Shown here: piece after piece, positions 1-14,016 of the stretch
Numbering within the stretch: the first letter of the stretch is position 1
Layout of the letters: each line of letters begins with the position of its first letter
Assembly (NCBI RefSeq): GCF_000402035.1
Contig: NC_021289.1
Span: forward strand, 1,178,001 to 1,242,000
DNA from: Caballeronia insecticola
Lineage (GTDB): Bacteria > Pseudomonadota > Gammaproteobacteria > Burkholderiales > Burkholderiaceae
Length of the DNA: 64,000 nt
Direction: 5' to 3'
Translations under genes and position numbers: made by a program
The notes under the pieces: generated by a model
Seen by the model: the letters and a program-made list of their open reading frames with translations, nothing else
Databases searched by the model: none
Told to the model about the DNA's origin: nothing

Positions 1-265
1 CAATCGGAATCGTGTTGCGCATCAGCGCGCTGTTGCCGTTCGCATCCGGTGCGGCCGCGACGAACGGCGAATCCCACGCGGTGCTCGTGTGCACGGGCAC
101 CATGATCGTGACGCCATCGACAGTCACCGCCTTGTGATCCGACGGTCCCGCGCCGCCGCGCCGGCTCGCCACGCCCGCGCGCGGATCGGCGAGCCGCAGT
201 CCGGTCGACTGCAATTCAGTCATCAATTGCCGGCTCGATGCCGGCAGGTTCTCGAAGGCGCTCAT
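1..265 (-). CDS. MSMEG_0568-type radical SAM protein (N-terminal part; runs off the window)
   Basis: Only the first 88 residues are present; the rest lies beyond position 1. The visible part has an [12 protein letters not shown] segment that I associate with the radical SAM member of the Nit1C cluster. The CX3CX2C cluster motif would be further downstream and cannot be seen, so the assignment leans on context (nitrilase plus Sll0783-family protein) and on this N-terminal signature. The start is uncertain: ATG at 265 overlaps the nitrilase end by 50 bases, whereas an in-frame ATG at 223 would overlap by only 8 and may be the real start. It is the third gene of the minus-strand operon. Chemistry unknown. 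Confidence 0.7.
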
Positions 266-1223
266 CGTCGCGGGTGTCCTTGAAAGAGGTGACGGGCGAA
301 GCGGGCCGGTCGTTGATCGCGAGACTCAGCAACTCGGGACGCGCGTAGTGACCGACCGAATCCATCATGCGTTTGCGCTTCGTGATCAGCGACATGTCGA
401 GATCGGCGATCACCATGCCCTCGCCTTCGCGCAACGGCTCCGCGAGATGCTGGCCTTCGGGCGAGACGATCGCCGTGTTGCAGCCGCCGCGCAATGCGCG
501 TTGCAGGTTAGGATCGGGCGTGATGGCTTCGATCTGCGCATCGGTGAGCCAGCCCGTCGCATTGACGACGAAGCAGCCCGATTCCAGCGCGTGATGACGG
601 ATCGTCACTTCGATCTGCTCCGCGAAGATCGGACCGACGAGCGAGCCGGGAAACTGGCTGCAATGGATCTCTTCGTGCTGCGTCATCAATGCATAGCGCG
701 CGAGCGGGTTGTAGTGCTCCCAGCACGCGAGCGCGCCCACGCGGCCCACATTCGTATCGACGACCTTCAGGCCCGCGGCATCGCCTTGGCCCCAGATCAT
801 GCGTTCATGAAACGTCGGCGTGATCTTGCGGCGCTTGAGCAGCAGCCGGCCATCGGTATCGAAGACGAGTTGCGTGTTGTACAGGCTGCCGTGATCGCGC
901 TCGTTCACGCCGAGCACGACGACCATGTTCGCAAGCCGCGCGTGTTCGGCGACCGCCTGCGTGACCAGCCCCGGCACGATCACCGCCTGCTCGTAGAGCT
1001 TCATGTGATCCGCGCCCATTGCGACCGGCGTGCGCACGAACGAGAAGTACGGGTAATACGGCACGAAGGTCTCGGGGAACACGATCAGCTGCACGCCTTG
1101 CGCCGCGGCTTCGTCGATGGCCGTGCACACGCGATCGAGCGTGCCGCCCGGACGCTCGAAGTCCGGCGCGATCTGCACCGCGGCGGCGCGCACGATGCGC
1201 TTCGTTGAAGAGGCATCGGCCAT
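216..1223 (-). CDS. Nit1-type nitrilase of the Nit1C cluster
   Basis: A 335-residue carbon-nitrogen hydrolase. The catalytic triad is readable: E51 in the FPETF motif, K133 in RRKITPT, and C167 in ACWEH. Enzymes of this family hydrolyse nitriles to the acid and ammonia; the natural substrate in the Nit1C group is not firmly settled, although such clusters have been linked to cyanide assimilation as a nitrogen source. Length is normal for bacterial nitrilases. The start at 1223 lies 5 bases after the stop of the preceding gene, so the two are co-transcribed and probably translationally linked; the 3' end overlaps the radical SAM gene. Confidence 0.92.
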
Positions 1224-1228
1224 GATCG

Positions 1229-1711
1229 TCACACGGTCCACGTATGAATGACGAGCGCGTTCTCCTTGCGATGAAGCAGCTGGAGATCGAGCACGTCGAG
1301 CGGGTTGATCGGACGAATACCTTCGATCAGCGAGGCTTCGCCGTGTCCGTAGAGCGCCTGCAACGCGAAGCGGCACGCATAGACCTTGCCGCCTTCGGCC
1401 ATGAACTTCTGCAGTTGCTTGTTGAAGTTGAGATGGCCGGGGAAGGCTTCGTCGCCGAGCGTCGGGAAGCCGCGTTGCAGGCCGAGCGTGACGCCGGGGC
1501 CGTACAGCAGCACGGAAGTATCGAAGCCCTTGCGTTGCAGGCGTGTCGCCTGAAGGAGATTGACGAAGCCGATCGAGCCTTCGAACGCGACCGTATGAAA
1601 CGTGACGAGCGCCTTTTCGCCCGGCTCGGCCTTGACGTCTTCGAAGACCTTTTCTTCGTAGTCGACCAGATAATCGCCGTTCTTGTGAAGCGGTTGATTG
1701 ACTGCGGGCAT
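1229..1711 (-). CDS. MSMEG_0572/Sll0783 family nitrogen-starvation response protein
   Basis: A 160-residue protein of the small family that marks the first gene of Nit1C clusters (Sll0783 in Synechocystis, MSMEG_0572 in Mycobacterium). The family is soluble and its biochemical role is unknown; cyanobacterial members respond to nitrogen starvation. The start at 1711 is chosen because a GGAGAA ribosome-binding site sits four bases upstream, although an in-frame ATG exists further upstream. The gene is followed after 5 bases by the nitrilase. It faces the MocR gene across a 381-base regulatory region holding shared repeats, which suggests control by that regulator. Confidence 0.88.
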
Positions 1712-2092
1712 GGCATTCTCCGATGTGTGGTTTCGCGTTGACGCCGTGCTTTTCATCGCGACGGCGAACGCTCAAACGCAACGGATATGCCAATGATTGG
1801 CCCGCAAAATGCAATCACTTTGCAATCAAGCAAAACCTGGTTGCATGCGGAACGCGAAAATTTTTTAGCGCGACTTGAACGCACGGGCTTGCGCCGCGTT
1901 TCGCGCAAGCCATGCCGCACTTGAGCACGCACGATTTCAGCGCAGCCAGGCATGCGCGTGGTGCGCGGCACACCGAAGCCGTGCATCGATGCGATCAATG
2001 CAATCAAGTGATATCGCCTCGTGCGATCACTTTTCTTTCGATTGATTTGTCATGCTAAGGTGAATCGACATCTTGCCCGAGGCATCGCAGTC
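1712..2092. promoter_or_regulatory. Divergent promoter region between the Nit1C operon and mocR
   Basis: No convincing gene lies here. The ten-mer TGCAATCAAG occurs twice (1821-1830 and 1999-2008). The heptamer ATCACTT occurs at 1814-1820 and 2026-2032, and its complement AAGTGAT at 2006-2012. The last two form an inverted repeat with a 13-base spacer just upstream of the MocR start. The same words on both flanks look like binding sites for the divergently encoded MocR protein. Site function is inferred. Confidence 0.5.
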
Positions 2093-3484
2093 ATGAATCA
2101 GATGACGCATCACTGGATCAGAAAGCTCGAAGACAGCCGAAAGCCCGCTTATCTGACGATTCCCGATCTGATCGAAGAAGACCTGGCGAGCGGGCGTCTG
2201 CGGCCACGCGATCGTCTGCCCGGCCTGCGCGATCTCGCCGATCTGCTCAGCCTGAACTACACGACGGTCGCACGCGCTTATGCGGAAGCGCGCAAGCGCG
2301 GCCTGCTCGATGCGCGCGCGGGCAGCGGCACCTTCGTGCGCGGCAGAACGCAGACGTTGCCGCTCGCGGGCGGCAGCAGCGTCGAGATGTCGATGAATAT
2401 GCCGCCGGAACCGGCCGCGCTCGCCGCGCGTTTGCGTGCGTCGGCGGCGAGCCTCATGGAGCGCGCGGACCCGTTCCAGTTGTTGCGCTATCAGGACTTC
2501 GGCGGCACGGCGGCCGATCGCGCGGCGGGACGCGAATGGCTGCGCACGCGCATTCCCGATTGCGATGCCGACACCGTGCTCGTGTGTCCCGGCATTCATG
2601 GCGCACTCGTCGCGCTGGTTTCGCAACTGGCGCGGCCGGGCGAGATGATCTGTCTCGACTCGCTCGCGTATCCCGGCATCAAGGCGATTGCGTCGCAACT
2701 CGGCGTGCGCCTGCAAGCCTTGGCGCGCGATGACGAAGGACCTTTGCCGCACGCGTTCGAAGCGTTGTGCAAGACGGAGCAGCCCGGCGGGTTCTATTGC
2801 AATCCCACGTTGCAGAATCCGAGCACGCTGACGCTCACGCGACAGCGCCGTGAAGCACTCGCCGATGTCGCGCTGCGCTACAACGTGCCGATCATCGAAG
2901 ACGAACCGTATGGCATGTTGCCGCTCGACGCGCCCGCCACGCTGGCGGAACTCGCGCCCGAGCTGACCTATCACGTGACGGGTTTATCGAAGACGCTGGG
3001 CGCGGGCTTGCGGGTCGCGTATCTGAAAGCGCCCACGCCGCGGCAGACGCAACGCGTGGCCGGTGCGCTGCGCGCGACGACCGTCATGCCGAGTCCGTTC
3101 ACCGTGCTGCTCGCGACACAATGGGTCAATGATGGCACCGCGCGCGACGTCCTCGATGCGATTCGCGACGAAGCCTCGGCGCGTCAGACCATCGCCGCGC
3201 AAGTATTCGACGGCCTGCCCTTCGACGCGCATCCTTCAGGGTTTCATCTATGGCTGCCCGTGCCGGCGGCGTGCGACTGGAGCGCGTCGGAACTGGCGTT
3301 GCAGTTGCGCAATCAGGGCATCGGCGCGGTGGCGGGGGCCGCGTTTTCCACGGACGGCAATCCGCCGAATGCATTGCGTCTGTGTCTCGGCGGGCCGCAG
3401 AATCGGGAGGATTGCCGGGAGGCGTTGCGGCGCGTGGCGGATATGCTCGCCGATCCGCATCATCTGCATATGCCGATGTTTTGA
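2093..3484 (+). CDS. MocR-family transcriptional regulator (GntR HTH plus aminotransferase-like domain)
   Basis: A 463-residue PLP-dependent regulator. An N-terminal GntR-type winged helix (about residues 12-85, with LSLNYTTVARAYAEARKRG as the recognition region) is joined to a fold-type I aminotransferase-like domain. The PLP-binding lysine is K300 in the GLSKTLGAGLR motif. Proteins of this type use PLP or a PLP adduct as effector and usually control a divergent operon; here that is the Nit1C-type cluster, so it may sense nitrogen or amino-acid status (inference). ATG at 2093 was taken rather than an ATG at 2021, because starting at 2021 would put the ribosome site and operator repeats inside the gene. 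It converges with the DUF4434 gene, 7 bases away. Confidence 0.88.
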   Translation: MNQMTHHWIRKLEDSRKPAYLTIPDLIEEDLASGRLRPRDRLPGLRDLADLLSLNYTTVARAYAEARKRGLLDARAGSGTFVRGRTQTLPLAGGSSVEMSMNMPPEPAALAARLRASAASLMERADPFQLLRYQDFGGTAADRAAGREWLRTRIPDCDADTVLVCPGIHGALVALVSQLARPGEMICLDSLAYPGIKAIASQLGVRLQALARDDEGPLPHAFEALCKTEQPGGFYCNPTLQNPSTLTLTRQRREALADVALRYNVPIIEDEPYGMLPLDAPATLAELAPELTYHVTGLSKTLGAGLRVAYLKAPTPRQTQRVAGALRATTVMPSPFTVLLATQWVNDGTARDVLDAIRDEASARQTIAAQVFDGLPFDAHPSGFHLWLPVPAACDWSASELALQLRNQGIGAVAGAAFSTDGNPPNALRLCLGGPQNREDCREALRRVADMLADPHHLHMPMF

Positions 3485-3491
3485 ACCGCGT

Positions 3492-4364
3492 CTAACGCAA
3501 TGGCGCACGCTTATATGCATCGAGCAAACCGCGCACGAGTTCGTCCGACACATAGTGCGGCCCGTCGAACAAATACGTGCGATAGCCGCGATACGCATCG
3601 ATCTGCGGCTTCAGTTCATCGACGGTTGCGGCGCGGAACCCGCCGCCCACTTTCGGCCGGAACGACTCCGCGATGATCCTCACACGCGCGCGCCCGAGCT
3701 TCGCCGCGAGCTGATCCGCATATTCACGCGCCACGTGCGGCTCGCGCGCATACACGCCGCAGCCGTCCTGCAGCAACACGCCGACATCGGGCGGCAACCA
3801 TTGATCGAGCCATTGCGCGAGCGCCGCGCCGCCCACGTTCGCGCGGTCGTACACGCTGATCCACAACGGACGCGGCAACGCATCGAGCATCGTGCGCAGC
3901 GCGCTGGCATCGCGCCAGGTCGGATCGATCTCCACGGGAAAGTAATAGCCGGTCACATGCACCGGCGGACGCGCATCCGCGAGCCGCATCGATTCGATGA
4001 ACAACTGCGCCGTATTCGCGCGCGCCGCCGCTTCGTCGAAGCGCCCCGCCAGCCCGATGATCACATCGCGCGCCCACGGCTCCTGCCCGATGCGCTCCCA
4101 GTCCGGCATCCGCGCCGCCGCGCGCAAGCCTGTGCCGGGCACGAACGAAATGCCATCGACGGCCGTCCACTGCACGATCAGCTCGTGCGCGCCGAGCTTG
4201 TCCCAGTCGCCGTGCGGATCGGCGTGCGCATTGTCCGGCTGCCAGACGATGCCATCGATCAGACGCGGCGGCGCGGCATCGGCATTGGTCATGGCCGACA
4301 TCGACAAGCAGCACGCCAGCGCGAGCGTGCCAAGGACCGAGCGGGGAGCGAAAAAGGAAAGCAT
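3492..4364 (-). CDS. DUF4434 (YbcH-like) exported protein of the nfr operon
   Basis: A 290-residue protein with a signal peptide (hydrophobic stretch at residues 8-25, then Ala-rich cleavage region). After that comes a domain with TIM-barrel-like glycoside-hydrolase character, including GIVWQPDNAHA near the start and a tract ending GYRTYLFDGPHYVS. I take it as the counterpart of E. coli YbcH, which follows nfrA in the same order. It is likely periplasmic and may trim or bind the exported glycan; no catalytic residues can be named with confidence. It is the last gene of the minus-strand operon, 20 bases after nfrA. Confidence 0.7.
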   Translation of the reverse strand: MLSFFAPRSVLGTLALACCLSMSAMTNADAAPPRLIDGIVWQPDNAHADPHGDWDKLGAHELIVQWTAVDGISFVPGTGLRAAARMPDWERIGQEPWARDVIIGLAGRFDEAAARANTAQLFIESMRLADARPPVHVTGYYFPVEIDPTWRDASALRTMLDALPRPLWISVYDRANVGGAALAQWLDQWLPPDVGVLLQDGCGVYAREPHVAREYADQLAAKLGRARVRIIAESFRPKVGGGFRAATVDELKPQIDAYRGYRTYLFDGPHYVSDELVRGLLDAYKRAPLR

Positions 4365-4384
4365 CGGGGAAACCGGCGGTGGCG

Positions 4385-6844
4385 TCAGTACGAGAATACC
4401 GCGCCGAAGAACACGCCCTTCGCGCGCTCGTCGCCGGCGACGCGAAACCGGTACTGCACCGTCACATCGACGAACGAGCGCGGCGCATCGTACGGACCGC
4501 CGCGGAACCAGTAGCGCGCCGCCACGCCCGCGCCCACGCCCACCGGCACGCTGTGATCGACCGCCGAGTCGTAGTCCATGCCGACCACGGCGTGCGGGAA
4601 CACGGTGAGCCGCGGACTCAGCGCGTCGACGCGATACGTGCGGCCGAGACGCGCATTCGCGGTCGCGTAGGTCGAATGATTCTCGATGTAGTGTCCCGCC
4701 TCGCCGTACACCGTGCCGGTCCACCAGCTCGGCACGTCGAGCCTGCGCGTGTCGCCGAAACCGTTCGAATACGCGGCGCGCGCGAGCCAGTCGGTGCGCA
4801 CGTCCGAGCCGATCGGCAGAATCTTTTCGACCGCGAAAATCGCATTGACCGATGCAAACGGCTTCACGCGCGCACCGATGGCCGCCTGCAACGTCGATGC
4901 CCCCGACGGCCCGCCGCCCTTCACGCCGAAGTTTTCGTAGCCGCGCGCGTACACCTCGAACATGCGGTCGCCGAGGCTTCCGAACGGACGCCAGTAGGCT
5001 TCCGCGCCCGCCTGCCAGTTGTTCGACAGACCCGGCGTCGGCGCGAACGCGAAGCCTTGCTGCGCGCCGTTGCCGCGATAGTTCACGGTCGCGCTGAAAC
5101 CCCAGTTGCGCGTCGCTTCGGCGTGCGCCGCGCGGGCGTCGTTGAGCGCCTGCGACGACAGCGCATCGTCGGCCGGGCCGCTCGCGCTGTGATCGATCGC
5201 GCGCTCCAGATAGCGCGCGCCCTCGTCGTTGCGATGCATGCCGAGCGCCGCATAACCCGCATCGGCTTCGGCGGAAGCGGGCAGCGTGCCCGCGCGATCG
5301 GCACGCGCGAAGTAATCGAGCGCGAGCGCGTTGTCGCCGGCGCGTTGCGCGATGAACGCGGCCTGCGTGTCGCTCATCGAGTCGAGCAGGTTCGCATTGA
5401 TCAGCGCGCGCGCCTCGCCCGACGCCTCGCGCGTTCGCCCGCTCGCCGTGAGTGCGTCGATCAACGCGATGCGCGGTTGCGGGTCGTCGGGCACCGCGGC
5501 AATCGCCGTGCGCCAGTCATCGATGGCCGCCGCGCGATCGCCGCGCCGTTCAGCGAGGCGCGCTTCGCGGGTCGCGGCGAGCGCGGGATCGTGCGCGTAG
5601 ACATCGCACGAAGCGCCGAATTCGTCGGCGTGGCACTCGAAACTCGGACGCGCGCGCGGATCGATCTTCGCCGCGTCCGGCGCTTGCGGCGCGGCCATGC
5701 GCACGAGCGTCTGCGCGCGATGACGCCGCAGGATGATCGCGGCATCGGCGTCGTCGGGCGTTTTCGTGTCGATGGACGGCAGCGCAGCGAGCGCGGCCTG
5801 CGGGTTGCCCTGCGCGAGCCGCACGTCCGCGACGATCGTCCGCGCGACGCGTGCATCGCGATTGCGGCGCGTATCGCCCGAGGCGGTTGGTGCGGTTGGT
5901 GCGGCAAGCGCCCGCGCGAAATCGGCATCGGCCTCTGCATCGTTGCCGCGCGCCGCGCGGGCATAGCCGCGCAACGCCCACGCGAGCGCATTCGTTTGAT
6001 CGATCGCAATTGCGTCGCCCGCTGCGGCTTCGACGCCCGCGAGGTCGCCGCGCGCGAACAGCGTCTCGATCAACTGCATGCGGAAGTCCATCCGGCCAGG
6101 TGCGTAGGTCACCGCCTGTTGCGCGTGCCTGTGCGCTTCGTCCAGCGCGCCGCGATCGCGCGCCGCATATGCCGCTTTCGATTCCGCGGGCGCAAGCCGG
6201 TCGCCGATAAAACGCCGCCGTTCGCGCAAACCCTCGTTGTCGCCGAAGCGTTGCGCGGCGTCGAGCGCGGCATCGTAGGCGGCGGCATCGTCGCCGGATG
6301 CGGCGAGCGAGTCGATCAGCACATATCGCAAACGCTCGGCCTGTGGCGCGAGCCGCACGGCTTCGCGGCTGTTCGTCACCGCCGACGCGTAATCCTTTTT
6401 CCCGTAAGCGCGATACGCCGCGCGCGCGGCCCTGGGCGCCGGTTCGGGCAAGTCGCTGGGCACGCCGCCTTCGCCGCCCGACGCAATCAGAATGTCGATC
6501 TGCCGGCGCCGCGCCGTGAGCGCGGGCAGCGGTCCGAGTTGCGCGATGGCGTCGCCGAGCGCGCGGCTCGCGTCCTTCAGACGCCCGCGCGCCGCCAGCG
6601 AATTCGCCAGCAGCAGACGCAGTTCGGCGACATCCGGACGCTGCCGGATCGCTTCGCGCGCACCGGCGATGGCATCGGCATAACGATGTTCGTCGTAAGC
6701 CGCGAACGCCTCGCGCGCGACGCGATAGGCCGCGCCGCTCAAGGGCAGCGGCAGATTCGCGTCCGCGCGCGCCGCCGCCGATGCACACAGCGTGGCGGCG
6801 GTCAGCAGCGCGACACGCGCACGTCGTCCGAGTCGCGCCGTCAT
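4385..6844 (-). CDS. nfrA: NfrA-like outer-membrane polysaccharide export protein
   Basis: An 819-residue protein with an N-terminal signal peptide (about 1-27), a long alpha-helical region of TPR-like Ala-rich repeats (about 30-560), and a C-terminal part rich in alternating aromatic and polar residues that ends in FSY, as outer-membrane beta-barrels do. This matches the plan of NfrA, the phage N4 adsorption protein A, which forms the outer-membrane exit for a polymer made by NfrB. The ATG overlaps the nfrB stop (ATGA at 6841-6844), so translation is coupled. Overall identity to the E. coli protein cannot be judged here; architecture and gene order support the call. Confidence 0.82.
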   Translation of the reverse strand: MTARLGRRARVALLTAATLCASAAARADANLPLPLSGAAYRVAREAFAAYDEHRYADAIAGAREAIRQRPDVAELRLLLANSLAARGRLKDASRALGDAIAQLGPLPALTARRRQIDILIASGGEGGVPSDLPEPAPRAARAAYRAYGKKDYASAVTNSREAVRLAPQAERLRYVLIDSLAASGDDAAAYDAALDAAQRFGDNEGLRERRRFIGDRLAPAESKAAYAARDRGALDEAHRHAQQAVTYAPGRMDFRMQLIETLFARGDLAGVEAAAGDAIAIDQTNALAWALRGYARAARGNDAEADADFARALAAPTAPTASGDTRRNRDARVARTIVADVRLAQGNPQAALAALPSIDTKTPDDADAAIILRRHRAQTLVRMAAPQAPDAAKIDPRARPSFECHADEFGASCDVYAHDPALAATREARLAERRGDRAAAIDDWRTAIAAVPDDPQPRIALIDALTASGRTREASGEARALINANLLDSMSDTQAAFIAQRAGDNALALDYFARADRAGTLPASAEADAGYAALGMHRNDEGARYLERAIDHSASGPADDALSSQALNDARAAHAEATRNWGFSATVNYRGNGAQQGFAFAPTPGLSNNWQAGAEAYWRPFGSLGDRMFEVYARGYENFGVKGGGPSGASTLQAAIGARVKPFASVNAIFAVEKILPIGSDVRTDWLARAAYSNGFGDTRRLDVPSWWTGTVYGEAGHYIENHSTYATANARLGRTYRVDALSPRLTVFPHAVVGMDYDSAVDHSVPVGVGAGVAARYWFRGGPYDAPRSFVDVTVQYRFRVAGDERAKGVFFGAVFSY

Positions 6845-9036
6845 CGAATCCCGGCCTGCGCGAGAAAGCGGCGGCGCTGCTCGGCAATCGCCACCGTCAG
6901 CGCATCGCGCGTGATGACCCGCTCCGCGACCATGTAATCGCCGATGCGTCCGTGCCGCTCCGGCCGATAGTTCTGCAACGCGGTCTCGAAGGCGCTGCGC
7001 GTGACGAGTCCCATCTCGATCATGATGTCGCCGAGCAACGGCACGGCGCGCGCGGTGTCGGCATCGGTGTCGGCATCGATTACGGCGAGCGACGGCGGCG
7101 CTTCGAGTTCGGCTTCGTCGCTATAAACCGGCATGCCGACCGCGCGCAGCATCCGCAACCCCGCCGTGATCTCGCTCTCGCGCACGACCTGCAACGCGAC
7201 CGCACGGTCCGTCGCCGCGCGCAGGTCGGCGAGCGCGGCATCGTCGAGCAGGCCCGCGCAGACGAACACGGCGTGCCCGTTCGCATCGATGCCCTGCGGC
7301 AGCGCGCGCAGCCGCACGAGCGTGTCGGGCGTCGCGACCGTCGTCAGATTCATGCGCGCGGGGTCGAAGTGTCCGCGCGGCAAGTCGGCCTGAAACGCGA
7401 TCGCCTCGGCGAGCGTTTCTTCGTCGAGCCAGCCGCGCGTAACCAGCACGCGGCCGATCGGCGCCTCGCGCGCGTGATCGGTGCGGCGCGCTTCTTCGAG
7501 CCGTGCGGGGTCGATCGCCTGCCACGACACGAGCAATTCGCCGAGATCCTGACGCGTGTCGCGCAGGCCGTCGCTGCTGGGGAAATCGTGCATCGTCTTG
7601 TCCCACGCGAGCCGCCGCCCCGTCACCACATGCACGATGAACAGCCGCCACGCGCGCGCCACCGCCATGAAGTTGATGACGTTGCTGATGACCATGCGCG
7701 GCACCGCGAGCACGCCGTGCTCCCATCCATACAGCCGCGACGTGAAGATGATGCGCTGCGTGACGCGCAGCACGAGCGCAACCGAGTTCGCCGCGAGCAG
7801 CGCCTGCAGCCAGCCCGAATCGATGAACGGCGACGGAAAGAAGTCCGTCGCGGCACCGAAGTACGACGCCGCCGCAAACAGCATGAACTGCACGGCGAGC
7901 AAATACGCGAGCATGCCGACGAACGCCGTGACGACGCCCTTGCGGTCGCGCATCAGCAAATAGCGGTTGGCGAGCGACCCGCTCCAGCCCGTCAGCGCCC
8001 AGCCTTGCAGACCGATGCCGAGCGTCCAGCGCGCGCGCTGCCGGTACGCGGTGCGAAACGTGTCGGGGAAAAATTCGCGCACGCACAGCGGCATCGTCAG
8101 CTTGATTTCGCGCTCGGCGCCGAAGCCGAACCAACCGCGGCGGCGCGTCGTGAATTCCACGGGAAAGAGCGGAAAGATCGACTGCATGCCGAGCTTCGTG
8201 ATGCGCGTGCCGATGTCGTAGTCTTCGGTGAGGCTTTCGGTGTTGAACGGCTGATGTTCCGTCTGCTCGACGAGCGCAAGAATCGCGCGGCGCGAAAAAC
8301 ACGTTCCCACGCCCGCCGACGGCACCGCGCCCGCGAGACTCTCGCGCACCACGAGATCCTTCGCGTGCCATTCGGCGAACTCGTCCATATACGTGCCCGC
8401 GACGAGTTCGAACCAGTGACGTTCGAGCGACGCCACCGGCAACTGGATCATGTCCTTGCGCGGCAGAAGATAGTTGAAGAACTTGAGTTCGATCGGATGC
8501 AGCACGTCTTCACTGTCATGCATGACGATGCCCGCGAACTCCATGCCGGCCTCGTACTCGTGATGCAGAATCGCCTGCACGAGCCAGTTCAGGCAGTCGG
8601 CCTTGCACGTGGGACCATCGTGCTGTACTTCCACGCGATGCAGATGCTTGTAGCGATGCCGCATGCGCTCCACTTCGGCGATCGTCGCGGCATCGTTCTG
8701 ATACGTGCCGACGAACACCGTGTACGCGCGATAGTCGAGCACGCGCACGAGATCCTCGATCATCGCGGCGATCACGTCGTGCTCTTGCCACGCGGGCACC
8801 ATGATCGCGATAGGCTGCTCGTCGCGCGCGTAAAGCTGCTCGATCGTGAGCGGCGCGTAGCGGCGCTCGACCGTCACGCGCCGCCAGAGCTTGCGCGTCC
8901 AGAACCACGCGTCGATGAAAAGATCATCGAGACTCGACAGCAGGATGAGCGCCGCGACCGTCGCGGCCACGTATTCGAGTCCCTGGTAGTACTCGGCGAG
9001 AACGATCTCGCCGTACCACCGGAGCGTTTCGAGCAT
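6841..9036 (-). CDS. nfrB: NfrB-like membrane glycosyltransferase with C-terminal MshEN region
   Basis: A 731-residue inner-membrane family 2 glycosyltransferase. Residues 18-36 form a transmembrane helix. The catalytic core carries DSED at 174-177, TED at 270-272 and the QxxRW motif (QRARW) at 333-337, followed by several membrane spans (about 365-470). The C-terminal part (about 495-727) is made of MshEN-like repeats (for example IGRVLVTRGWLDEETL and LGDIMIEMGLVTRS), the c-di-GMP-binding module that activates E. coli NfrB. It is expected to polymerise a ManNAc-type sugar from the WecB product and pass it to NfrA. TGATG overlap with the bcsB-like gene and ATGA overlap with nfrA show tight coupling. 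Confidence 0.88.
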   Translation of the reverse strand: MLETLRWYGEIVLAEYYQGLEYVAATVAALILLSSLDDLFIDAWFWTRKLWRRVTVERRYAPLTIEQLYARDEQPIAIMVPAWQEHDVIAAMIEDLVRVLDYRAYTVFVGTYQNDAATIAEVERMRHRYKHLHRVEVQHDGPTCKADCLNWLVQAILHHEYEAGMEFAGIVMHDSEDVLHPIELKFFNYLLPRKDMIQLPVASLERHWFELVAGTYMDEFAEWHAKDLVVRESLAGAVPSAGVGTCFSRRAILALVEQTEHQPFNTESLTEDYDIGTRITKLGMQSIFPLFPVEFTTRRRGWFGFGAEREIKLTMPLCVREFFPDTFRTAYRQRARWTLGIGLQGWALTGWSGSLANRYLLMRDRKGVVTAFVGMLAYLLAVQFMLFAAASYFGAATDFFPSPFIDSGWLQALLAANSVALVLRVTQRIIFTSRLYGWEHGVLAVPRMVISNVINFMAVARAWRLFIVHVVTGRRLAWDKTMHDFPSSDGLRDTRQDLGELLVSWQAIDPARLEEARRTDHAREAPIGRVLVTRGWLDEETLAEAIAFQADLPRGHFDPARMNLTTVATPDTLVRLRALPQGIDANGHAVFVCAGLLDDAALADLRAATDRAVALQVVRESEITAGLRMLRAVGMPVYSDEAELEAPPSLAVIDADTDADTARAVPLLGDIMIEMGLVTRSAFETALQNYRPERHGRIGDYMVAERVITRDALTVAIAEQRRRFLAQAGIR

Positions 9037-11255
9037 CACGCGCGGTCCCCGTCGTCTCCGTTGTTCCCGCGTTGTGCGTTGCGATGTTTGCGCCGCGCCG
9101 CGCCCGCCAGCGCGATCAGCGCAAGCAGCAGCACGACGAGCACGGCCGGAATGCCCCAGCGCGCCCAGTGCCGCGTGACCCAGTCGGTGCTGGTCGCGGG
9201 CTCGTCGGTGAGTTCGTCCGCGCCGACCGTGTCGAACTGTTTGAGCACGCCGCTGCCGTCCACCACGGCGATATCGCCGCGCGACAGTTGCAGCTTGTCG
9301 GTCAGCACCGGCGCCGTGCCGGCCGAGCGATACACAATGCCGCTCTGTCCGCCCGCACTCGCCACGCTCACCACGCCCACGCGCGACAACCCCGACATGT
9401 CGAGCAGCGTGTCGCCCGAAGGCGATGTCAGCGAAAGACGATCGGCCGAATACACGGCGGGATTCTTTTCGTCGGCGAGTCTGACGTCGGCGGCAAGGAA
9501 CGGGCCGTCCGGTTGCGTGGCGTCCTGCGGCGCGCTCACCGCGAATTTCGCCGAGACGGGCGCGATGCCCGCCGCGCCGGTCAGCACGGCCAGGCGCGGC
9601 ACGCTGTCGAGCGCATCGTCGAGATAGGCGCGCGGCACGTACACCGTCGCCGACGACGCATAACGCGCCGCCATGCCCGCGAAGGTGTTGACGGGCGTCG
9701 CCTTGGCGAGACGCAGGTGACTCGTCGGCAGGATCGCGACCGGATACGTCTGGCGCGCCTGGCAACCGCCGTCGGGCTGGCGGCGCAGGCTCACGCGCAG
9801 ATCGTTGGTGCGGGCGAGCGCGTAGCGCGGAATCGGCGCGATCAGACGCTGGCGCGCGCCATCGACGTTGATGAGACGCGCGCCGATCATCACGTCGTTG
9901 AAATAGACGGTGGCCGTCGCGCCGCCGTTGGAGAGCGTCGGCGATGCGGCGATGTCGAGCACCACTTGCTCCGGCAGCCGCCCGTTGCCCGATGCCGCCG
10001 CGAGATCGAAGCGCGCGTCCCACGATGCGTTGGTCTGCACGTCGATGCTGCGCGGATCGCCGCCGAGATCGGACAGCGCGATGGTGTCGCCGTGCGTCTG
10101 CTGCGCCACGTCGATGCGATGCACGACCACGCGATCCGACACGTCGATCGGCCGCCAGCCGTGCGCGAGCGCGCCGATGCCGCGCGTATCGCCGACGACG
10201 ATCAGCGCGCGTCCGCCCACATGCGCGACGCGCACTTCGCCCGGCGCGAGCGGCGTCGTCAGCTGGGACGCCGTGCGCTTGCGCCAGGCGTCGAACGCCG
10301 CGAGCGCATCGCCGGACGTGTTCGCGACTTGCAGACGCAATGCGTCGAGCGCGGCGCCGATCGTGCGCCGCATCGCTTCATCGGCGACCACGACGTCCGG
10401 CCCGAACGCCGTGCGCGGCGCGAGCGCCACGAGCGCGCCGAGTTGCGCCTGATCGGCGATCGCGTGCTTGCCGCCCGCGGCCAGCGCGGCGAACGCGGGA
10501 ACGCTGCGCAGCGCGACCGGCACGTCGATGTTGCTCAGATCGACCGTCTCGCCCACTGCGGGCAGCGCCTGCATCACGGGACGCTTGCCGTCGCGCTGAA
10601 GCAGCGCATTGGTGCGCCAGGCCGTGTCGTATGCGTTGGTCGAGAGCTTGCGGCCGGCAATCGCCAGCACCGGCGCGTACGGCAGCGCGCTCCATGCGGT
10701 GCGCAGGTCCTGCACGTCGGCGGGATTGAAGCGGAACGTGAGACGCGTGGTCGGATCGACGCGCAGCACATTGCCGATCGCCGTCTGATCCGTACAGTCG
10801 TTCTGATTGATCACCGATGCGAAGCCGAGCCCCAGCCGCACGAAGCCCGCGCTTCGCGGCGCGCCGTCGACGCCGAGATTCACCGCGACGCCGCCCGATT
10901 CCTGCGTGAACGCGCGCGCCAGAACCGGCGAGCCGTCGAGCGACAGAAGCATCGTCACGCGCCCGCCGTCGCCGCGCACATAGCCGCCGTCGACTTGCAG
11001 CGTGGCGTCGCTGATCGGCACGTTCGCGGGCACGGGCAAAAAGAACTCGCGCCGCGTGTCGGGCGCATTGAGCGTCACGCTTTCGAGCAGGCCGAGTTGC
11101 CTGAGCGTCACGGTGCGCGTTTCCTGCACGTCGAGGCCGAGCCGGCCGAACGCACCCGCGATGTCGTTGTCCGCGACGGACGCGGCGAGCGTCGCGCGCG
11201 GCACGGCGGCGAGAAAAACGAAGCACGCGCCGAGTAAAACCAGAACGGCGCGCAT
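9036..11255 (-). CDS. BcsB-like periplasmic subunit of a polysaccharide synthase
   Basis: A 739-residue protein with a signal peptide (about 1-24), a long beta-rich periplasmic region and a single C-terminal transmembrane helix (about 700-720) followed by a short basic tail. This is the layout of BcsB, which guides nascent cellulose across the periplasm with BcsA. No BcsA, BcsC or BcsZ gene is present; the partner synthase encoded next to it is NfrB, whose start overlaps its stop by one base. It therefore probably acts as the periplasmic channel for the NfrB product. ATG at 11255 was chosen; upstream non-ATG starts in the same frame are possible. Confidence 0.8.
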   Translation of the reverse strand: MRAVLVLLGACFVFLAAVPRATLAASVADNDIAGAFGRLGLDVQETRTVTLRQLGLLESVTLNAPDTRREFFLPVPANVPISDATLQVDGGYVRGDGGRVTMLLSLDGSPVLARAFTQESGGVAVNLGVDGAPRSAGFVRLGLGFASVINQNDCTDQTAIGNVLRVDPTTRLTFRFNPADVQDLRTAWSALPYAPVLAIAGRKLSTNAYDTAWRTNALLQRDGKRPVMQALPAVGETVDLSNIDVPVALRSVPAFAALAAGGKHAIADQAQLGALVALAPRTAFGPDVVVADEAMRRTIGAALDALRLQVANTSGDALAAFDAWRKRTASQLTTPLAPGEVRVAHVGGRALIVVGDTRGIGALAHGWRPIDVSDRVVVHRIDVAQQTHGDTIALSDLGGDPRSIDVQTNASWDARFDLAAASGNGRLPEQVVLDIAASPTLSNGGATATVYFNDVMIGARLINVDGARQRLIAPIPRYALARTNDLRVSLRRQPDGGCQARQTYPVAILPTSHLRLAKATPVNTFAGMAARYASSATVYVPRAYLDDALDSVPRLAVLTGAAGIAPVSAKFAVSAPQDATQPDGPFLAADVRLADEKNPAVYSADRLSLTSPSGDTLLDMSGLSRVGVVSVASAGGQSGIVYRSAGTAPVLTDKLQLSRGDIAVVDGSGVLKQFDTVGADELTDEPATSTDWVTRHWARWGIPAVLVVLLLALIALAGAARRKHRNAQRGNNGDDGDRA

Positions 11256-11491
11256 GCGGCGCCGCTTCGAATTGTCGTTGATCAAGTTGTGTGACTCGAA
11301 TTGAGCGCAACGGGGCGGAATGGCCGCGCTGCGGTTCCGCGCGGTCCATGTGATTCGGACCGCCGCGAAACACGCACGACGCGCGAACGCCGCGATTGCG
11401 TGAAGCGTGATTTCCGGCCGGGATAATGCTCGCCGCATTGAGTCGCGAACGGCCGTGGCGCGACGTGCTTGACGCGTTGAATCGATAGAAC

Positions 11492-12694
11492 TTAGACGAG
11501 CGCCTCGCGCGCCCGGTACGCCGCGTATTCCGTGCGGAGCGAAGGCGCGGGCCTGAATTCCTCGAAGGGACGGCCCATGAGCGCCGCGACGATGCGTGCC
11601 GAAGCGCGTCCGTCGCCGTAGGGATTCACGTTGCGGGAGAACGCGGCGCGGGCGTCTTCGTCGTCGAGCAGGAGACTGACCGCGCTCGCGATGGCGTCGC
11701 TGTCGGTGCCGACGAGCATCGCGGTTCCGGCGTCGATCGCCTCGGGCCGCTCGGTGACATCGCGCATGACGAGCACCGGCTTGCCGAGCGACGGCGCTTC
11801 TTCCTGCACGCCGCCCGAGTCGGTGAGCACGAGCGTCGAACGCTGCAGCAATCGCACGAAGCCCATGTAATCCTGCGGCTCGATAAGAAACACGTTCGGC
11901 GCTTCGCCTAATGCGCTGATCACCGTTGCCTGCACGTTCGGATTCAGATGCACGGGATAGACGATCTGCACATCGCGACGTTTTGCGATTCGCGCGAGCG
12001 CGGCGCAGATGTCGCGCAGACCCTGCCCGAAGCTCTCGCGCCGATGCCCGGTGACGAGCACCAGTTGCTTGCGCGAATCGAGAAAGGGAAAGCGTGCATC
12101 GAGCTTGCGGCGCAACGCCTCGCACGAATCGATGCGCGCCGTCACATGGCGCAGCGCGTCGATCACCGTGTTGCCGGTGACATACGCACGGCCGTGCAGC
12201 TTTTCGCCGGCGAGATTGTCGAGCGAACGCGGCGTGGGGACGAACATCAGTTCGCTCATCACATCGACGATGCGGCGGTTCATCTCTTCCGGCCACGGAC
12301 TCTGCATGTCGCCGGTGCGCAGCCCCGCCTCGATATGCACGACCGGCACTTGCCGATGAAACGCCGCGAGCGCGGCGGCCGTCGCCGTGGTCGTGTCGCC
12401 GTGGACGAGCACGCGATCGGGCGTTTCGCGGCTGATCACATCGTCGATGGACGACATGAGACGCGAAGTCAGCCCGTTCAGGCTCTGGTTTTCGGACATG
12501 AGCGCGAGGTCGTAGTGCGGCGTGATGTCGAACAGGTCGAGCACCTGCTGCAGCATCGAACGATGCTGGCCGGTCACACATACGACGGAACGAATATCCT
12601 GTTCCGCTTCCAGCGCCTTCACGAGCGGCGCCATTTTGATAGCCTCGGGCCGCGTTCCAAAAATGGAAAGAATCGTTTTTCGCTTCGTGTTCAT
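11492..12694 (-). CDS. wecB: UDP-N-acetylglucosamine 2-epimerase (non-hydrolysing)
   Basis: A 400-residue cytoplasmic enzyme that interconverts UDP-GlcNAc and UDP-ManNAc. Family marks are the FGTRPEAIKMAPL motif near the N terminus, HGDTTTA, HIEAGLRT, GHRRES and TDSGGVQEEAP. ATG at 12694 follows a GGGGA ribosome-binding site; an ATG 10 codons upstream is less well placed. It stands 236 bases upstream of the bcsB-nfrB-nfrA operon on the same strand. In E. coli WecB supplies the sugar nucleotide for the NfrB-made glycan, so a substrate-supply role is likely here, although it could also serve lipopolysaccharide or capsule synthesis. Confidence 0.93.
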   Translation of the reverse strand: MNTKRKTILSIFGTRPEAIKMAPLVKALEAEQDIRSVVCVTGQHRSMLQQVLDLFDITPHYDLALMSENQSLNGLTSRLMSSIDDVISRETPDRVLVHGDTTTATAAALAAFHRQVPVVHIEAGLRTGDMQSPWPEEMNRRIVDVMSELMFVPTPRSLDNLAGEKLHGRAYVTGNTVIDALRHVTARIDSCEALRRKLDARFPFLDSRKQLVLVTGHRRESFGQGLRDICAALARIAKRRDVQIVYPVHLNPNVQATVISALGEAPNVFLIEPQDYMGFVRLLQRSTLVLTDSGGVQEEAPSLGKPVLVMRDVTERPEAIDAGTAMLVGTDSDAIASAVSLLLDDEDARAAFSRNVNPYGDGRASARIVAALMGRPFEEFRPAPSLRTEYAAYRAREALV

Positions 12695-12860
12695 TGTCCC
12701 CGACGATTGCACAATCTTTAACAATTTCGATTGTATTCAGACGTTTAGGAGCACCCTCCAACTAAAATGTAAAAAAGTCTAACGAGAGTTTTATGCAACG
12801 ATTTGGCGATGTTTTGTCTATCGTCAGACAGAGGTTTTTACCTGTTTTTTAACTGGATGG
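12695..12860. other. AT-rich junction between the nfr locus and the arsenic region
   Basis: A stretch much richer in A and T than its surroundings. It holds the upstream region of wecB (read on the minus strand) and ends where the truncated MFS gene stops. No gene, insertion sequence end or clear terminator could be recognised. It marks the left border of the accessory patch. Confidence 0.5.
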
Positions 12861-13301
12861 TTAGGTTGTCCCAGGATGTGGGGCGGGGCTGAACAGCGGA
12901 TCGTAGAACGTCGCGGCCATCGCCAGCCCGAGTCCGATCCAGGCAACGAACACTATCGTCAGCGATGACGTGGCGGACCAGAGCAGCAGCATTGCGGTCG
13001 CGACGACCGAACCGATGGTCATCACACGACGGCCAAGTCCGCGATCAATCCAACTGCCGACCGGATAGGCAGCAAACCCCGACACAAGCAAGCCGAGCGA
13101 CAGCGCTGCGTTCGTTGCCGTACGGCTCCAGCCCATCGTCTGTTCCATCGGGACGACCAGCAGCGAGAAAGAGTAGTAGACGGAGCCCCATGACACCAGT
13201 TGCGCAAGCGCGAGCGCCCACGTCGCCAGCGACTCGGCCCGATCAAGTCCGCTACTCGAGTTCGCTGTCGTCGGTGTCGGCGTTCTGCGTGCTGCGCTCA
13301 T
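12861..13301 (-). pseudogene. Truncated MFS transporter at the end of the ars operon
   Basis: The 146 codons give only the first four or so transmembrane segments of an MFS permease (WALALAQLVSWGSVYYSFSLLV at the start, SWIDRGLGRR as the loop 2-3 motif). The homologous reading ends near YDPLF, after which an unrelated nine-residue tail meets a stop. Normal members have about 400 residues and 12 spans. MFS genes next to arsH are common in ars operons. The start overlaps arsH by 50 bases. The 3' part has been removed at the junction with the nfr locus, so it is very unlikely to work as a transporter. Confidence 0.8.
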
Positions 13302-14016
13302 GACTCATCGCTGCGCCCGCGAGCGCTGTAACGGTTGCCGGGGCCTTGTCCTTGCGTTCGCTGTACCGGTCGGTGAGATAGTCGGAGCGATCGCGCACAA
13401 GCAGCGTGAACTTGTATAGCTCTTCCATCACATCGACGACGCGATCGTAGTACGACGACGGTTTCATCCGGCCGTCGTCATCGAACTCCAGGAATGCCTT
13501 CGCGACCGAACTCTGGTTCGGGATGGTCACCATCCGCATCCAGCGTCCGAGCAGGCGCAAGGCGTTGACGGCGTTGAACGATTGCGAACCACCGGAAACC
13601 TGCATGACGGCGAGCGTACGACCTTGGGTGGGCCGGATGCTGCCCGAGTCGAGCGGCAGCCAGTCGATCTGGTTCTTGAACACGCCGGTCATTGCACCGT
13701 GCCGCTCCGGGCTGCACCATACCTGCCCTTCGGACCAGATCGACGCTTCGCGCAATTCAACGACCTTCGGGTGATCGGCGGGAACGCTGTCGGCGAGCGG
13801 CAGGCCTTGCGGATCGAATACTTTCGTCTCGGCGCCGAACTGGCGAAGAATGCGTTCTGCTTCGAGCGTCAGTAACCGGCTGTAGGACGTCGGGCGTAGC
13901 GAGCCGTAAAGCAGCAGGATGCGGGGCGCGTGGGGCGACACCGTGCGCGGTTCCAGCTTCGCAGCATTCGGCGTGTCCAGATGCGGGAGGCTGATGTTCG
14001 GAATATCGGAGTGCAT
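13252..14016 (-). CDS. arsH: ArsH, NADPH-dependent FMN reductase / organoarsenical oxidase
   Basis: A 254-residue flavodoxin-like protein. The FMN phosphate-binding loop [10 protein letters not shown] lies near residue 40, and the [18 protein letters not shown] and [13 protein letters not shown] segments are typical of ArsH. Members of this family oxidise trivalent methylarsenicals and some aromatic arsenicals to less toxic pentavalent forms. Together with the ArsI-like lyase in the same operon this points to resistance to organic as well as inorganic arsenic. Length is normal. It lies 31 bases after the arsC-arsN fusion gene. Confidence 0.93.

Follow-up and report, generated by a model that had tools for sequence, protein, structure and literature searches.

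A BcsB-like periplasmic subunit paired with NfrB in a probable c-di-GMP-responsive exopolysaccharide operon of Caballeronia insecticola

The window that we analyzed (64,000 nucleotides of contig NC_021289.1, positions 1,178,001 to 1,242,000, from the 6.96-Mb genome of Caballeronia insecticola) carries an operon on its minus strand in which wecB, a BcsB-like gene, nfrB, nfrA, and a DUF4434-like gene follow one another in the order of transcription (Table 1). These genes are present as claimed in an earlier note made from the sequence, including a full-length BcsB-like gene whose stop overlaps the nfrB start; the DUF4434 match is weak. Family models identified WecB, NfrB, and NfrA unambiguously, with WecB assigned to TIGR00236 and NfrA to the TPR and NfrA_C families. 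The DUF4434-like protein scored 17.3 bits against Pfam PF14488 (gathering score, 30) and 46 bits in a second library (cutoff, 344), and its YbcH/DUF4434 label is weakly suggested by likeness and position. Judged from its family, WecB would supply UDP-ManNAc, and a second wecB copy is present in the genome (C5:180427). A gap of 236 nt separates wecB from the BcsB-like gene, and nfrB and nfrA overlap at 6841 to 6844. We read nfrB from the ATG at 9036, with a GTG at 9039 also possible; the BcsB-like protein has 739 aa counted from the ATG at 11255 and 749 aa in the database copy (P0001). A sigma-70 scan of positions 3000 to 13400 returned a single promoter-like site, on the plus strand, which equals the chance expectation. 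The region directly upstream of wecB (12861 to 14016) contains arsH together with a short ArsK-like MFS gene, of which 129 aa were scanned against a model of 388 positions; it looks as though an arsenic cluster had been cut at the operon edge. Past the other end (216 to 3484) are a Nit6803-type nitrilase and MSMEG_0572-family genes, and the plus strand there carries a MocR-like regulator.

Table 1. Features of the BcsB-containing nfr operon, in window coordinates.
Feature	Position	Strand	Basis
wecB, non-hydrolysing UDP-GlcNAc 2-epimerase	11492..12694	-	400 aa; TIGR00236 460 bits (cutoff, 210)
BcsB-like periplasmic subunit	9036..11255	-	Pfam BcsB (PF03170) 37.6 bits (gathering score, 21); AF2 model; Foldseek and VIA matches to BcsB
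Segment inside BcsB-like gene	9096..9152	-	hydropathy 2.8; model helix 689-731
TGATG, BcsB-like stop overlapping nfrB ATG	9034..9038	-	sequence
nfrB, inner-membrane GT2 synthase	6841..9036	-	731 aa; NF012033 1024 bits; BcsA and MshE structure matches
GT2 domain of NfrB	8020..8814	-	Pfam PF13641 E = 2.9e-35; motifs HDSED, TED, QRARW
First MshEN module of NfrB	7390..7545	-	residues 499-550 (from GTG 9039); NF053729 69.9 bits (cutoff, 38)
Second, MshEN-like module of NfrB	6874..7035	-	residues ~669-722; LG motifs at 669 and 699; boundaries drawn by eye
nfrA	4385..6844	-	819 aa; TPR region and NfrA_C domain; NfrA_C E = 1.3e-51, TPR matches
YbcH/DUF4434-like gene	3492..4388	-	298 aa as translated; subthreshold in both libraries

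The locus resembles the nfr operon of Escherichia coli in its nfrB-nfrA-ybcH order and its MshEN-bearing synthase, and the E. coli system depends on WecB (PMC8669469, PMC8669472). The earlier note proposed the match to this phage N4 receptor locus; the E. coli operon differs in having no BcsB gene, and E. coli wecB sits in the ECA operon (PMC8669472). The note knew of no description of a combined NfrB-BcsB locus; such loci have in fact been described in Achromobacter xylosoxidans and Acinetobacter baumannii. The A. xylosoxidans cluster resembles the window locus in joining nfrA, nfrB, and wecB to a BcsB homolog, but it also has O-acetyltransferase homologs (Sellner 2021, PMC8669472), none of which was seen in the window. 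A plasmid locus of P. dioscoreae (L080, 14783 to 16863) has AlgF and an MBOAT O-acyltransferase annotated after nfrA, recalling that cluster. According to its published description (2025, PMC12507263), the A. baumannii PGR locus (pgrA-G) encodes PgrC (a homolog of NfrB, BcsA, and PgaC), PgrD (BcsB), PgrF (WecB), and a predicted outer-membrane porin, PgrG, and its polymer is proposed to contain ManNAc; it differs in also having a degenerate GGDEF protein, PgrA, and PgrE, which resembles the PgaB C terminus. Insertion in or deletion of pgrD confers resistance to phage StAb3; adsorption of this phage is lost in the deletion strain, and complementation restores susceptibility. Mutants in pgrF (wecB) also resist StAb3 (PMC12507263). 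In the publications covered, genetic support for the need of a BcsB homolog for a surface glycan comes from A. baumannii pgrD only. BcsB never occurs in the main text of a survey of 1,841 NfrB homologs (PMC8669469), and a search by titles, abstract starts, and term counts, with few subscription journals covered, found no further publication on an NfrB-BcsB pair. Three points made below, a single clade of BcsB-linked NfrBs, a probable non-cellulose origin of the BcsB-like subunit, and a missing docking groove, were not found in the earlier descriptions consulted.

The closest named relative at the locus is a Burkholderia peredens record (94% for the BcsB-like protein), other near matches being mostly from Caballeronia. 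The AF2 model of the BcsB-like protein (pLDDT, 83.3) has the multidomain BcsB fold despite slight sequence similarity. The periplasmic part is kept in full, with an alignment to BcsB that covers residues 41 to 678, and hydropathy and the model both indicate that the C-terminal tail anchor is kept as well. Together with a GT2 synthase that carries a c-di-GMP module, this fold likens the locus to the Bcs cellulose synthase, which differs in having PilZ instead of MshEN and in having BcsC and BcsZ, neither of which was found in this locus.

The [HQ]DxED, TED, and QxxRW motifs are present in all 44 NfrB rows, and in the window protein QRARW sits at the end of the GT2 domain. As previously noted from the sequence, MshEN lies at the C terminus of NfrB, where the AF2 model (pLDDT, 81.0) has a fold match to MshE (5htl); profile and model thus point to a c-di-GMP-type MshEN module. 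Four BcsB-linked loci (L031, L033, L035, and L079) encode short NfrBs of 562 to 573 aa that stop shortly past the first MshEN module; this subgroup seems able to do without the second one. Against the E. coli-type model NF008411, the window NfrB reached 660.6 bits, under the curated cutoff of 1170, and it scored best with NF012033, as did all six other BcsB-linked NfrBs. The E. coli-type NfrBs (3/3) scored best with NF008411, yet they also exceeded the NF012033 cutoff, so the two types can be separated by best score alone. The NfrB of a Burkholderia pyrrocinia plasmid, whose locus has no BcsB, was also best with NF012033. The membrane part of NfrB differs from that of BcsA, which has eight helices including TM1-3 (PMC4330554): the NfrB model lacks counterparts of TM1-3, which in BcsA form the docking groove for the tail anchor of BcsB, and the BcsA-BcsB contact is therefore not transferable as is.

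The pairing of the BcsB-like gene with nfrB is conserved. The search with the BcsB-like protein yielded 22 loci, and in all of them nfrB lies directly downstream; nfrA is near in 21 of these, the DUF4434-like gene in 17, and wecB in 13 plus one partial copy. Thirty-five of the 38 loci measured (L002, L003, and L070 left out as duplicates) have the aligned NfrB start at -10 to 39 nt from the BcsB stop, with exceptions at L025 (fragmented), L041 (split BcsB gene), and L030. In genome surveys of the kind that the earlier note suggested as a check, 24 of 101 close relatives had NfrB and 23 the BcsB-like gene, adjacent in all 23, and among 300 genomes of the order, NfrB was found in 14 and the BcsB-like gene in 9, adjacent in 7. 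In 398 genomes of the phylum (NfrB in 33), 29 had a BcsB-like match, of which the 6 strong ones all adjoin nfrB and the other 23 score below 180 bits per stretch; the 369 genomes of the class were surveyed for NfrB only (found in 8). Six plasmid records had a BcsB-like gene among the matches listed, with nfrB adjoining in five. No Acinetobacter or Achromobacter sequences were among the matches listed in the protein and plasmid searches. One exception in the order, G221, pairs the BcsB-like gene with a different synthase. In the other, G268, a lone BcsB-like gene (L089, 9003 to 11207) lies between secA (recognized by eye) and a pyruvate kinase gene, with pelA- and pelB-like genes beyond, and nfrB lies elsewhere and groups with E. 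coli nfrB in the NfrB tree; this lone gene is possibly a remnant or a trans-acting subunit. On a Nitratireductor plasmid (L076, 6749 to 8988) and in genome G391 (L041, 6168 to 8904), two open frames make up the BcsB-like gene, which may reflect a real split, decay, or a sequencing error.

A 30-row BcsB tree placed the partners of NfrB in one clade of 18 rows (98/99), in which P0059, P0094, and P0112 were counted as partners without a context check. This clade was joined (100/99) with seven outside BcsB-like proteins; cellulose BcsB, represented by two rows only, and the L062 type discussed below lay apart from this joint group. The outside proteins come from Hyphomicrobiales, an alphaproteobacterial group, in the case of L077 and otherwise from another class of the same phylum. 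In the plasmid locus L077, in L090 (from the same order as the window), and in five of six fetched loci of this nearest group (L084 to L088, L085 and L086 being one genome), the BcsB-like gene immediately precedes a GT2 gene, as in the window. The sixth, L083, has no visible GT2 partner and adjoins a helicase gene, although the tree still labels it with that group. The GT2s of L084 to L088 and L090 are 55 to 58% identical to that of L077, which scored 24.6 bits against the NfrB profile. These operons, a third partner system for BcsB, differ from the nfr type in their GT2, in an N-terminal MshEN (L077 and L090, the two scanned with Pfam) and a GH113 gene in the same two loci, and in nfrA, which was found in none of the seven loci. 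In L090 (8629 to 15679), the pair is followed by a 537-aa protein without a Pfam match and the GH113 protein; in L077 (7754 to 14312), it is followed by a 527-aa protein without a match, the GH113 gene being divergent next to the pair. Since the nearest kin partner another MshEN-bearing GT2, the BcsB-like subunit is probably one of a lineage that works with MshEN-bearing synthases rather than one from cellulose systems. A second, separate BcsB-NfrB association is seen in L062 (9064 to 16067), where a BcsB of separate lineage (Pfam, 140 bits) lies with wecB, a TPR protein, and a distant NfrB whose kin include Legionella. Five of seven BcsB matches of the L062-type group (P0121 to P0127 and P0129 to P0147) appear, from the length of the longest contig, to share a genome with an NfrB match, so this type of pair seems to recur.

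It is possible that BcsB-like proteins form a general, exchangeable co-polymerase family outside cellulose, a single lineage working with two or more kinds of MshEN-bearing GT2 (NfrB and the enzyme with N-terminal MshEN). We advance this tentatively, together with the idea that docking in the NfrB machine would differ from that of BcsA and BcsB because the TM1-3 groove is missing, the anchor perhaps replacing TM1-3. A narrower role would make the BcsB-like protein mainly a membrane or assembly subunit whose anchor stabilizes NfrB, with structural or ring-forming jelly-rolls and no guiding of the polymer. Published in vitro cellulose synthesis requires, next to BcsA, no part of BcsB beyond its tail anchor (PMC11470070, PMC6740014), and the anchor is kept here; retention of the full periplasmic part, however, exceeds the needs of an anchor, and we regard this narrower role as rather doubtful.

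Whether BcsB was recruited or lost can be judged from the NfrB trees, which were built from subsets of rows without near-duplicates and fragments and, in the second tree, also without some long branches. The first tree (48 NfrB rows plus PgaC) put all 17 BcsB-linked NfrBs in one clade (100/100), as did the second (44 rows) with all 19 (100/100). The sister of this clade, on a long branch, is the nfrB-nfrA-wecB locus of the B. pyrrocinia plasmid (100/98), in whose record no BcsB is annotated and none was found by search. Twenty-four BcsB-less rows fall outside the clade and none inside the clade of 19, absence being judged within ~10 kb; L038 was left out because a contig end is close by. One clade with a BcsB-less sister makes a single gain the simplest, although not proven, history: BcsB would have entered a single time, on the stem of one NfrB clade, and been retained since, in line with the recruitment named in the earlier note. 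The reverse history, in which the NfrB family had BcsB from the start and the E. coli type lost it, draws on the far, separate BcsB-like gene of L062, on the poor resolution of the deep NfrB branches, several of them long, and on contigs that end near some BcsB-less loci (L059 and L063). We consider it unlikely, given the number of BcsB-less rows outside the clade, the BcsB-less sister, and the fact that the L062 BcsB is of another lineage. Two further lines were dropped. The correlation between the nfrB and bcsB distance matrices is high (r = 0.854, reached by 0 of 2,000 permutations; 16 loci), but the other operon gene pairs tested are correlated as well (0.77 to 0.89), so the value shows shared descent only and not contact. 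The window NfrA profile gave far higher scores for NfrA of BcsB-positive loci; as a rule, NfrA type fails at two BcsB-less loci, L064 (323 bits) and B. pyrrocinia (285 bits).

Operon parts can come and go, as seen in L034 and L016, which keep bcsB-nfrB with no local nfrA detected, and in the B. pyrrocinia locus without BcsB. That the BcsB-like gene is for this reason a dispensable passenger is nevertheless very improbable, because no member of the clade of 19 lacks BcsB and pgrD is needed for the A. baumannii phage receptor (PMC12507263). Service to a cellulose synthase in trans, for which the genome does hold a bcs operon, is scarcely credible, since that operon has its own BcsB and the BcsB-like lineage, tied to nfrB, lies far from the two cellulose BcsBs in the tree. 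A check raised in the earlier note, whether the BcsB-like protein belongs to a separate bcs system, thus did not refute the hybrid: in the same six-frame search with the Pfam BcsB model, the BcsB of that operon (bcsA, bcsB, bcsZ, and bcsC together on contig 4, another contig than the window) scored 760 bits versus 21 bits for the window protein. The BcsB-like gene, which adjoins nfrB, is not encoded with bcsA. With a separate cellulose BcsB in the genome, the protein is placed in the BcsB fold family and rejected as a cellulose subunit in disguise.

We therefore consider the locus a likely c-di-GMP-responsive exopolysaccharide operon, synthase-dependent and of a BcsB-containing Nfr type, with a tail-anchored BcsB-like co-polymerase that was gained once. 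Adjacency in the surveys, the BcsB fold, the invariant synthase motifs, the 19-member clade, and the pgrD/pgrF precedent argue for this reading. Against it stand the missing TM1-3 groove, the E. coli operon without BcsB, the lone BcsB-like gene of G268 far from its E. coli-type nfrB, and the adjacency of wecB in little more than half of the loci. The hybrid export route proposed in the earlier note is supported in part: its gene content (NfrB, a BcsB-type subunit as putative guide, an NfrA exit, and WecB) is borne out, whereas a BcsA-type groove is missing from the NfrB model. In the proposed mechanism, WecB would make UDP-ManNAc, and NfrB, by analogy with E. coli NfrB, would polymerize an amino-sugar chain and move it through the inner membrane upon c-di-GMP binding to MshEN. 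The tail-anchored BcsB-like protein would act as co-polymerase on the periplasmic face. Its anchor probably completes the membrane portion of NfrB, which is small, and the jelly-roll domains would pass the emerging chain towards NfrA, which would carry the chain out; the DUF4434-like protein may be an accessory.

In E. coli, the Nfr glycan serves as a phage receptor; phage adsorption to Acinetobacter requires the BcsB-containing PGR locus, and the same has been suggested for Achromobacter in the published accounts. Our results suggest that the BcsB-NfrB pairing is an old, stable partnership not derived from cellulose. If it is indeed one stable clade, an NfrB that scores best with NF012033 would be a usable marker of it, with B. 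pyrrocinia as the known exception. The question of mechanism also becomes testable, namely how the tail anchor of BcsB joins a synthase without the known docking groove.
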